Origin: Xiphias gladius
Taxonomy: Eukaryota; Chordata; Actinopteri; Istiophoriformes; Xiphiidae
Direction: 5' to 3'
Assembly (NCBI RefSeq): GCF_016859285.1
Contig: NC_053402.1
Coordinates: 10,537,324-10,601,323 of the forward strand
Length of the DNA: 64,000 nucleotides
Numbering within the stretch: the first letter of the stretch is position 1; the number at the start of each line of letters is the position of its first letter. This document shows, one piece after another, positions 20,501 to 38,073 of this stretch. The position numbers were made by a program, and so were the translations under genes. The notes below the pieces were generated by a model. The model saw only the letters and a program-made list of their open reading frames with translations. It made no database searches and was not told where the DNA came from.

Positions 20501-23500
20501 GAATAATTCCAGGCTCACTGTTAAACTAGAATAAAAACATTCTGCAGTTGTTTTCTCCTGCTACATTTATCATAGAAATGTCTGAATCTAGTACTTCATA
20601 CAAAAACACAGAAAAGATACATGCTAAATATATAATTTTAAATGCGACTGGTATTGTCCTGTGATAATGACCTACCTGGTCTGAGATGTTGCGCTTGTAA
20701 CTGCATCAATCTCCTCATCCTTTAACCTCTTTAGTCTCTGGATCTGGTCTTCATGGTCTTTCTTCATCTCTAAAATAGATTTCCTTGATGGCAAAAACGG
20801 ACAAATACGACAATATATTGTAAACTTTAAAGTCTTTTATTTGTTATAAATTATAATATGCTCATTCTAGGGTTTGCAGAGTTATCTGGATACTTTGGTT
20901 AAGTAAGATCGAAAACAGATCTTTTGACATTGGTCCAAGCTCCAGCCTTGAGGGGATTCTGGGTATTGCACTGCTGGGATATCCAGATAATTCAGTATAC
21001 CTGCCTCTTTAATCAGACTCCTGATGTTCAGAAGCAGTAAACTGCACTCAACTCTTATTTTGGTTTAATTTTGTTTTTAATTCTTTAGAATGTAGGTTTC
21101 CTTAATTCTGACCTTTGGTCAACAGCTGGGCTGTTAACTGTTGAATATATCTTGTAATACAGTAAAGGATGTTCTCCTATTGCTAATGCTATTGTCACAG
21201 AAAAGGCGTCCCAAGGTTTACCTCTGGAGGTCTCTGAGTCTCTCCACCTCACGATCTCTGTCCTGCTGAGCCTGCGCCAGTTTGCGCTGGTACTGACCCT
21301 GCAGCTCTGAGCGTTCCTGCTCAGCCGAACGTGTTACTGTGGCCAGGCGTTCTATTAGGTCTTCATACTCCTGCCGCGCTCGTATCTCCCTCTGGGCTGC
21401 TGATTCCTCGAGCAGCTTCACACGAGTCCTGGATGCGCAAAGGAATATTTACAGTATGTGTTAAGCATATAGACAGACATAAGCCACTCAAAGTGTAAGG
21501 AATTATGCATAATGTATGGAACACTTTAACTACGTGTGTGTGTGTGTGTGTGTGTGTGTGGCGGTCTAGGAATAAACTACTTGTGTGTATTCTCCATAAG
21601 CTCCATATCCTGTTTATGCCGCTCCTGGAAACTCTCTAGTAACATTTCACTCTGGTCTCGCTCCAGCTGCAAGGTCTTCACCTGGACAATAAAAGATGAA
21701 AGTTTCAGGCTGGGCAAGTACATGGAGGTAACAAAAGAAGTGAAGCTGGGGCAGTATTGAAGGTAATTTTTCCCTCCTAAACATACAGTGGCAATACAGC
21801 GGCAACACTTATCCCCGTCATCACCACATAAGCCTGCACATACCTGTCCCTCCAACTGGATTATGCGAGCCCGTAAATCTTGGTAATCTCCAGGTTGATG
21901 CTCTTTGTCTTTGGGTCTCTGCAGGACCCCAGTATCCACAACACCCCCTAGACCCAGCAACTGGGACTGCATCATCTTTAGTAGGAGAGTAAGTAAGTCA
22001 ATAACAAACAGGCCATGAACGTGTTGTCATAGTTTGAATAAATCTGCGAGTAGAGGTACGTAAGTAGTTAAGTAGTTTCTTGCCTGCTGTTGTAGTAGCA
22101 GCTGCTGCAGACTGCCTGCTGAAAATGTCACCTATTCAGAAGATACAGAAGGAATTAAAAAGGCCTTATTAAATGATGTCCAAAATCATGACAACCATGT
22201 TACAGAAAAGCACCAATACCTGTTGCTGGACAGCAGTTGATGTGTCTTGCTGTGGAACTGCTGGGGAGAAAACAAACATGAGTAACAATCATGCTGATGA
22301 CCTCAAATTGGTTATTATAGCAATAGTGAAACATACTACTATATCTAAAACTACTTCATATTTCCCTAAAATTACGTACACCTCATGGTGCCAGGCAGTG
22401 TAGTAGACATAGTGCTGGGCAATGGCAGCTGTAGCGGGGTTTCGGCCGAAGCTTTATTAGGCCCTCTTAGCTCCCTGGGTCCCTTACTGGACTGGGGCTG
22501 GGGCTGGCTAATGCTTGGAGCAGAGACTGGCAAGGGACCAGTAAAATGGGGAGGATAATCTGAGGGATGAGACAATCTAAGAGTTTTTGAAAGGTCTACT
22601 TTAGCATGGAGATCGGTAGGTGAGGAGGTTGTTAAGGTGGAGGGCAGGTAAGGCTGGGCAGTGGGTGTACACTCGGTATATATAGAAGGAGATTGCGGTG
22701 GAGTGGAGAGGCAAGTGGGAATGGTATCTGTACGAGAGGAGGAGTACATGATTTAGAAGAACATGAGTTCATGATTTGCTAAAGTAATGAGAATGACATA
22801 ATACAAGGTAGGTATTAGATATGAGTCGGTAAGTGCACAGCATGCTGTGTAACATCTTTCATTTGTCAGAATGGCTAATTTTGTGAGAATGACAGGATGA
22901 CTGACAGACTAAACAGAGTCAAAGTGAGGAAGGCTTCTACTGTGAATGCGCAGTGTTGCCCGGGAGGGACATGGCTGTTGTGCAATCGGAATTAATTATT
23001 TTAAAATAAAGTATAACTGAAAAGTAGTTATTTGGGTCACTCGCTGCGTGAATCGCTGTGTGAGTACCTTGCTTGGTGCCCTCCTCTCTGATAGGGGTGG
23101 AGTGAGCAGCAGGGCTAGGCTGTCCATGAAGTGTGTTACTGCGAAAAAAGAAAAAAAAGGAGAATGAAAAATAAATTCCAAAATAGTCACTTACGTGGCT
23201 TTACTGGATTTACACAACAGATATATTACCTAGTTTCTTTGACAGATGTAATTGTGTCTTCTCTGCCCATGGGAGCCTGTGAAGTGACTTGTTTACTGAA
23301 AACAAGAGCAGGTAATCATTCAGTACTGAGAAACAAACATCTTCTCTGTCTGTATTGTATTGTACTGCATTGTGTGGCTTCAATGGTACCTAACAAACGA
23401 GTCCAGATCCACTTCTTCTCCCAGGCCTAAAGAATCTTCCAGTTTGGACTTTTTTGCCTCAGAGTTTGAAGCTGACAGACCCTTCTTCCTGCTCAGTGCT

Positions 23501-30103: not shown

Positions 30104-30939
30104 ACTTCCACTAACTGTCAATGTCTCTTTGCCTATCTGGATGTTTTCCTGTTTCCCTTTCACGTACTGTGATTCTGTTTTGGTGTACTGGCTTTAAGTC
30201 TTCTGTAATGCTTATATGCATGAATTTTATTTTGAATGTACAGTTTAATTCAATTTAATTTTGCGTGCTGTTATTTTCATGTCTGCATTTATCATTTTGG
30301 ATCAGTTTTAGAACTGGTTTGATTACTTGTAGCATTGACCCAAATTTTTGCTGAATTACTGCTGAAAGGACTGCTGGCATTGAATAAGTATTGTTCGAGG
30401 GGAAGTATAAGTTTGATGATAAGGTATGATGTCTTCTGTGGCTCTGGGGGAGCTTTGTCAATCTGAGAAAATTATCCTGATGATATCATCGGGGTTATCT
30501 CATCTAAGCCCAGCATCCCAATCCATAATTGGCTAAAAATGTTAATTATGTGATAATGTTATCTCAGCTTGGGCTTGGTGACTACAAATTTATAGCAAAA
30601 AAGCAGTAACGCTTTACGTTACAGGTCTATCATTTCCTAATAACTAAAGAACTACTTGTAAATACAGAGAAAATACAGACAAAGCCCAGAAACATTTGTT
30701 TGAGTTTAATACGTTTTAGATAAAAATAGTTGTTAATTTCCAACTATGAACTTCCTTACAAAATTTCTAAGTCAATGTTAAGTCAAGTATCACAATTTTT
30801 GGAGCTTGACCCATGCTAGCCACTAAGAATCAGATTGTCGTGGCCTCTGCTGCTTGGAAGGCTAATACTAAATGACTGGAGTATCCCTTTAAGGCCCCTG
30901 TGGCCATTTAGTACATTTGCTCAGTCTGTTTTCATTGAC

Positions 30940-30945
30940 TTTATT
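30940..30945 (-). terminator. prcd polyadenylation signal
   Basis: AATAAA on the minus strand, about 37 bases beyond the prcd stop codon. It implies a very short 3' UTR and supports the gene model. Confidence 0.6.
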
Positions 30946-30981
30946 TGTTTGTGTTTCCTTACCCTGTGATGCTCACTGTTG

Positions 30982-31863
30982 TCATTTTTGGGTTTCTGAT
31001 GGTCCTTTGCTCTTCGTGTATGGCACGTCTTTCTCAATAGCCTCTTTCTGCCTGTGACAGGTGATACAGACCATAAAATTAATATTAAATAATACATATT
31101 TATCATCACACTACCTTCTTGGTCATGGTCAGTAAAACACAAGACTCTTTGGAAACAGTTTGGCGAAGAATGAAAAGGGTTTTGCTGTTGCCATGCTCCA
31201 TGGTGCTGTAGCCACGTGGAATTGTTTGCCAATGCTGTGTGAGTGGCAGTGCAGGGCCGGGGGCCTGAGAAGATTGCACTTTGTGTCAATTAGCAGCCAT
31301 GGACTCAACAGCCCTGATGCTTTCTGCTCCCTTCATCTCTCCATTAAAAAAAAAAAAGCTGGAATACACTGTTGTTATGTAGCCAGCCACTTAATCCACA
31401 CACTGTTGCTTGAGGCAAACCTTAAAATAATCACAGGGGTGATTTCAAATCAATGATGCAGATAAGTCTCTTCCTGCCTCCCTCGTGCTCCCACACATGA
31501 AACAGACATGCAGCTTCTGTGTTTGAATGTATGTGTATATGCTCGTATTTGGGTATGTGTTGAAGTATTTTATCTAATTTATTTTATGAAGTATTTAATG
31601 CTTTTCTCACAAGCCTCAAGCTGTTGAATTTGTCTATTTTGTCAGGCACTGTAAAACGTAGTCTAAATCAAAATCTAAGCAAAAAGCATCTTATTTCAGT
31701 TTCATCACTGAAAACAGACACATTTTCCAGTGAGGACTATTCCACAGTGCCTGCCAAAAATCAAAAGACAGTGCATGATCAGTACTCACGGTCTGATTTT
31801 GTTGGAGAACCTCTGCCGCAGGATGAGAGCGATGGTAGTGAGGACCACCATAGTGGTACACAT
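30982..31863 (-). CDS. prcd: Progressive rod-cone degeneration protein (PRCD), two-exon micro-gene
   Basis: PRCD is a tiny palmitoylated protein of photoreceptor outer-segment discs, needed for disc packaging; mutations cause retinal degeneration in dogs and humans. Exon 1 (31863-31790) encodes MCTTMVVLTT, a hydrophobic stretch, then LRQRFSNKIR, and ends in a GTGAGT donor with phase 2. Exon 2 (31051-30982) follows a pyrimidine-rich CTGTCACAG acceptor, completes a proline and continues QKEAIEKDVPYT to a TGA. The product is 47 aa against 54 in mammals. Cys2 (the palmitoylation site), the single hydrophobic segment, the following basic RQR and the FxN motif all match the mammalian protein, and PRCD neighbours CYGB in mammals too. 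The C-terminal half is not obviously conserved. The frame is too short for most ORF filters, and a longer but spurious plus-strand frame covers exon 1. Confidence 0.87.
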
Positions 31864-31869
31864 GGTCCT

Positions 31870-32050
31870 ACCCCAAGGATCTCCCGCCTTGGGACTGCTG
31901 GTGGTTTAGAGCACTGAGGCTTCTCCTCCCATTGGAAGGCTCGAATGGTAAAAGCAGAGACTGTGGTGTAACAATCTGACTATTCCTGTCTTTCCTATTG
32001 GCTCTCACTTATGATCTGGGAGATTAGCTCAGAGGATTAGCTAGGATCAA
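31870..32050 (-). promoter_or_regulatory. Putative prcd promoter with OTX/CRX-type site
   Basis: About 170 bases upstream of the prcd start, GGATTA is at 32034-32039, with a related AGATTA about 12 bases before it. GGATTA/TAATCC is the core for CRX/OTX photoreceptor homeoproteins. The location suits a photoreceptor gene, but the motif is short and could occur by chance. Confidence 0.35.
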
Positions 32051-32693
32051 GGAGGGGGGTTAGATTTTGCTGGCAGGACTAGGAGGTAAACAAAGTGTGC
32101 TGTGTTTCTATTCTGAAACATCCCACCGTGCCACCATAGCGTCGACACAGCACACCTAATCAACCTTGATAATGTCTTTTTTGTTGAGAAAGAGGAGTAT
32201 TTTGTCAAAGGGCCTGTTGAAATTGGGTTTGAGTGGTACTATGGCAGCTTCACAGCATGGGATTACAGTAAGGATGAACATATACCAACCAAATTACCAT
32301 ATATCTAGATAATAGTAATTCATTGTTAATGTGCTCACACTTCCTTTGGGGAATTCTGAATTGTTGTTATAGATATCATTGGACTGCTTCTAAATATACT
32401 GGACCCTCTAATGACATCCCTGCCAGCCAAGTGCAGCATTCCTACAATATATTATGAAAGGAGAAAGCATAGTGGGATAAATGGGGGTATAAATAGGGAC
32501 TTTCTGCAGCTGAGCCACTTATACTTAGCACCGGTGACTCAAGCAGAGAATAAGGGCCAAGCGAGAGAAGGGAAAGGTCTATTTTCGCCGACACGTCCGT
32601 GAGTAGAAATGCGGGGGTATCAGATTAAAGCAGATACAAGTTTAAAAGGATTTGACGTTGCGCGGTGACGTCACATGGTTTTCACAGGGTAAT

Positions 32694-32699
32694 TTTATT
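32694..32699 (-). terminator. cygb1 polyadenylation signal
   Basis: AATAAA on the minus strand about 465 bases past the cygb1 stop, giving a 3' UTR of about 0.5 kb. Confidence 0.55.
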
Positions 32700-33163
32700 T
32701 CAAAATTGGGTTGAATACAGATACAAAGGTGAGTCGTAATGAAAAAAAATTTACAATCATCACAGTTAACTGTTAAAAATGTAAAAATGTCTTGGTCTTT
32801 TTAATATCTCATAAAGTGGACACATGTGGATATAGACTGATAAAAGGAAACATCATAAAAACATCACAATATTTAGAAAGAATGGTATTTACAAGGCAGT
32901 TTTCTAGATATACACATTCAGTAGAAGGCACATCCAAGTCAAATGTGACCTCTCATCCATTGTTGGATTTATGTTTGCATTTTCTTCCTTTTTGCTCTCT
33001 CCTGTAAAGGGTTTGGTCCGTAGCCCATTATTATCTTAGATTACATCAAACTGTATTCCCAGGCTCCAGTCAGTTGATTCCTCTCTGTTTTGAGGCTCGG
33101 GCCAAAAAAAAAAAAAAAAAAGTCTCTTGGTGTGCACGGTCTGATAAAACCAGACTAAAAGCT

Positions 33164-38073
<4,910 letters not shown>

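Follow-up and report, generated by a model that had tools for sequence, protein, structure and literature searches.

Mammalian PRCD, a component of photoreceptor discs, is the closest described system to the locus considered here. PRCD mutations have been linked to human retinitis pigmentosa and to retinal atrophy in dogs. The papers cited here describe a protein of 54 amino acids (human, dog) or 53 amino acids (mouse) (in part PMC7698587), in which Cys2 is palmitoylated, residues 3–15 form a membrane segment and residues 16–18 are basic (PMC9503786), and which binds TULP1 and TUB (PMC7698587). In mice without PRCD, the discs are disordered and rhodopsins are fewer and less densely packed (PMC7577997). 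Variants reported in patients include R17C and a truncation at Ser38 (PMC13205176, PMC9503786), R17C being described both as a polymorphism and, in the homozygous state, with disease (PMC9503786). In human PRCD, an intron follows c.74, and a minigene carrying c.74+5G>C skipped exon 1 (PMC8742059). A literature search by title and abstract found no paper about fish prcd, and the available part of one zebrafish paper (PMC9672332) merely cites PRCD; the exon structure of human PRCD beyond exon 1 and the gene order were likewise not found by literature search. Fish prcd is an ordinary gene of a known kind, and the locus may well be annotated already.

The window analysed here is the whole 64-kb stretch of DNA at positions 10537324–10601323 of contig C3, and the genome searches covered all 690,834,319 bases. 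The genome is taken for that of a fish on account of the likeness between its cytoglobin and zebrafish cygb1. In this window, a small minus-strand locus is very probably fish prcd, the orthologue of mammalian PRCD, with a first coding exon probably spliced to 31051–30982. This identification is based on a match to the Pfam family PF15201 above its cut-off that shuffled sequences did not reproduce, the position of the sole human PRCD match in the genome, an intron placed as at c.74 and the neighbouring genes cygb1 and fbf1. The layout is as follows.

31863–31790, minus strand: prcd coding exon 1, 74 nt, consisting of 24 codons and the CC of codon 25, read from the letters.
31789–31052, minus strand: intron 1, 738 nt, phase 2, running from GTGAGT to TGTCACAG.
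31051–30982, minus strand: proposed prcd coding exon 2, 70 nt including the TGA stop, joined in frame; plausible, not proven.

Exon 1 reads MCTTMVVLTTIALILRQRFSNKIR plus CC and is followed by GTGAGT; its DNA opens with ATGTGTACC and closes with AGACC, and the intron ends with CACAG directly before 31051. Joining the two exons gives MCTTMVVLTTIALILRQRFSNKIRPQKEAIEKDVPYTKSKGPSETQK, a protein of 47 amino acids. Without splicing, the frame of exon 1 meets a stop after codon 25 (MCTTMVVLTTIALILRQRFSNKIRP), and splicing is thus needed for a longer protein. The letters and coordinates in the initial annotation, including the 74-nt exon 1, the in-frame joining and the 47 amino acids, were all reproduced, and the 97-codon open reading frame that it had called spurious is present on the opposite strand at 31624–31917 with a TTG start. 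The gene would serve as an example of a tiny, exon-split gene that ORF-based annotation would miss. Across all six frames of the 64-kb window, the string MCTT turns up a single time. By generic weight matrices, the exon 1 donor scored 5.7, a value reached by 199 of 3591 minus-strand GT dinucleotides, and the exon 2 acceptor at 31051 scored 7.3, a value reached by 173 of 4393 AG dinucleotides on that strand.

Against PF15201 (Rod_cone_degen), the spliced 47-amino-acid protein scored 30.1 bits, above the curated cut-off of 27, and DUF4817, the sole other Pfam family listed for it, remained under its own cut-off. Exon 1 alone (the 25-residue unspliced frame, comprising exon 1 and the next G) scored 29.3 bits against the same cut-off, and none of 10 shuffles of the protein (six free and four within segments) matched the family. 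The human PRCD query used by us consisted of approximate letters and itself matches PF15201 at 131.7 bits over profile positions 1–54. In a TBLASTN search of the kind suggested by the initial annotation, this query found exon 1 in the window with an E-value of 6.5e-7, the next best match having 0.31, and the alignment went no further than codon 25, at the end of exon 1. Searched up to E 10, the entire 690.8-Mb genome gave one match to the same query, namely exon 1, with 46% identity over 26 amino acids. Several observations run counter to the prcd reading, namely the E-value of only 0.105 for this genome-wide match, a null PF15201 scan of the genome, RQR instead of RRR at residues 16–18 and the mediocre exon 1 donor (5.7). 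When the PF15201 profile was run over the fish's own genome, nothing reached E≤0.001; because the exon comprises only 25 codons and all 14 control genomes were silent too, we do not take this result as absence. The fish protein had no match among solved structures up to E 10, and a tblastn search of plasmids also gave none.

The fish protein and mammalian PRCD have in common the MCTT start, Cys2, hydrophobic residues 3–15, basic residues at positions 16 and 18, F19, N21 and P25. In the fish protein, the hydrophobic segment 3–15 has a mean Kyte–Doolittle value of 2.28, compared with −1.79 for residues 16–47, and is followed by RQR at positions 16–18, with K22 and R24 beyond. The polybasic stretch thus holds two arginines of three, unlike the RRR of mammalian PRCD, and the differing residue is Gln17 (31813–31815) in place of the arginine that is the site of R17C in human PRCD. 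Based on the approximate human letters, 12 of the first 25 residues (48%) are identical. Over the whole protein, identity is 34%, the C-terminal half is without clear likeness, and the predicted length of 47 amino acids falls short of the 54 of human and dog and the 53 of mouse. As for the likeness to PRCD claimed in the initial annotation, what can be recognised falls within exon 1, and the resemblance of FSNK to the mammalian protein extends to F and N, whereas the other two letters differ from the human query sequence, FANR. The claimed agreement in splice phase stands, as the first coding exon is 74 nt long in both species and ends in the same phase and codon, the junction falling within proline codon 25; the predicted fish donor lies directly after coding nucleotide 74, like human c.74.

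The gene had been placed on the minus strand between fbf1 and cygb1, and both neighbours were recognised, fbf1 by PF21007 and tblastn and cygb1 by PF00042 and PDB entry 6q6p.

38073–33164, minus strand: cygb1, upstream neighbour, with coding pieces near 38073–37930, 34285–34055 and 33328–33164 (stop).
24303–21221, minus strand: fbf1, downstream neighbour; the coordinates cover the stretch that tools recognised (PF21007, tblastn).

The cygb1 middle exon (34285–34055) scored 66.3 bits against Globin PF00042 and matched the cytoglobin 6q6p at E 3.7e-45; the suffix 1 in its name is presumed. The fbf1 ORF at 21221–21448 scored 58.9 bits against PF21007 FBF1, and an approximate N-terminal part of human FBF1 found pieces of 24303–23482 by tblastn at E 1.3e-9 or better; judged by eye, the full gene presumably extends from about 26054 to 17651. 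Further off than these two, sphk1 and a prpsap1-like exon (PF14572) are also near. We take PRCD, CYGB, FBF1, SPHK1 and PRPSAP1 to be neighbours on human 17q25, and a literature search found no paper joining PRCD, CYGB and 17q25. In the fish, prcd lies behind cygb1 in the same orientation (30982–38073), whereas the human genes PRCD and CYGB are on opposite strands, a difference that would imply a local inversion. An AATAAA read by eye at 32694–32699 (minus strand), roughly 470 nt beyond the stop of cygb1, suggests a gap of some 0.8 kb between the end of cygb1 and the start of prcd. Teleosts often carry two cytoglobins; the cygb1 middle exon (34055–34285) finds only itself genome-wide at E≤0.001, and no second cytoglobin was seen.

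Downstream of the prcd stop codon, two features bear on how the transcript ends.

30962–30965, minus strand: donor-like site AGG/GTAAGG, scoring 9.6 and ranking 17th among the 3591 minus-strand GT dinucleotides.
30945–30940, minus strand: AATAAA, a candidate poly(A) signal provided that exon 2 is terminal; the density of AATAAA on this strand is 0.75 per kb.

With its first base at 30945, the 37th after the stop, the AATAAA is exactly where it had been reported. Its place fits a poly(A) signal of this gene, and a terminal exon 2 would imply a 3′ UTR about 60 nt long; it is a candidate for that role, with the strong donor-like site, whose first intron base (30962) is the 20th base after the stop, lying between the stop and the AATAAA. 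It is quite possible, though not what we expect, that exon 2 is instead 31051–30963 (89 nt) and is spliced at 30962 to a non-coding third exon, in which case the AATAAA at 30945 would be intronic. The score of 9.6 at 30962 exceeds that of the exon 1 donor (5.7), and a stop codon 19 nt ahead of a junction normally does not trigger decay; against this, a strong donor-like site can arise by chance, and the AATAAA sits where a poly(A) signal fits. This arrangement is a variant of the prcd reading, compatible with it, and would leave the protein unchanged.

With regard to the two-exon structure proposed in the initial annotation, exon 1 is convincing and exon 2 is plausible as its true partner, but the Pfam score does not separate exon 2 from rival tails. 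Exon 2 raises the PF15201 score by only 0.8 bits (from 29.3 to 30.1), with a match that extends no further than residue 28 of 47. The 15 kb downstream hold 118 acceptor-like sites with scores of 5 or more, the site at 31051 included; four rival tails from among them gave 32.3, 31.0, 27.7 and 30.0 bits, two of which are above the exon 2 version (acceptor 30361, 32.3 bits; acceptor 29549, 31.0 bits). These values could favour another second coding exon further downstream, so that the C-terminus given here would be wrong. We consider this unlikely, since the tails differ little in Pfam score, some lying above exon 2 and others below it, and since no acceptor other than 31051 scores at least 7.3 over the 2.2 kb that follow the donor, save 31750, for which the intron would be 39 nt. 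Furthermore, exon 2 leads the 16 tails compared for codon score (+1.4 bits), a value that 4.3% of 4415 background stretches reach; the 16 include 14 of the 18 acceptor sites with scores of 5 or more within 3 kb (the four omitted have tails of at most four residues). The codon model was trained on merely 678 codons of the window, with some exon flanks included, and together with the generic splice matrices this makes the support for exon 2 moderate. As judged from the sequence, 31051–30982 is probably the real exon 2 of prcd.

That the locus is a chance open frame or a dead remnant without a working prcd is highly improbable: the exon is small, the genome-wide E-value with the human query is just 0.105 and the PF15201 genome scan was null at E≤0.001, but the Pfam score is above the cut-off with 0 of 10 shuffles matching, the phase and place of the intron are as in human PRCD, cygb1 and fbf1 are the neighbours, no other candidate was found among those scored in the genome and the frame is intact up to the splice site.

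Considering the locus as fish prcd, we propose the following scenario. Exon 1 would be spliced to 31051–30982, and the resulting 47-amino-acid protein would be produced in rods and cones. By analogy with mammalian work, Cys2 may be palmitoylated, and the hydrophobic segment may anchor the protein in the disc membranes of outer segments, where it would support orderly disc formation and rhodopsin packing as in mammals. The fish protein may thus do the same job as mammalian PRCD. If a working fish PRCD has Gln17 and a short, unlike C-terminus, the full RRR and the mammalian C-terminal half might be dispensable in discs; we regard this as doubtful, and, if true, it would contrast with R17C and the Ser38 truncation in patients. 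With its first exon intact, a fish orthologue offers a natural comparison for tolerated residues, notably Gln17.

The region upstream of the start codon contains the following sites.

32021–32040, minus strand: CTAATCC and TAATCT, CRX/OTX-like sites, about 160–170 nt upstream of the ATG; weak.

The naming of TAATC[CT]-type motifs after CRX/OTX is our assumption. At least two such motifs, on either strand, occur in 4.6% of 300-bp windows, and photoreceptor promoter sites were discarded as support for prcd because this signal is weak.

Searches for a second prcd covered the whole genome and scored the best candidates only. With the fish protein, two matches were obtained, both at the prcd locus; with the human PRCD query, the single match up to E 10 was at the same locus. 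The DNA of the region gave 19 matches, of which one was the region itself and 18 fell on a short dispersed repeat that lies outside the exons; no further place matching the exons or the intron was reported. This repeat lies at 30796–30858, just 3′ of exon 2, and its 18 further places in the genome show 79–85% identity.
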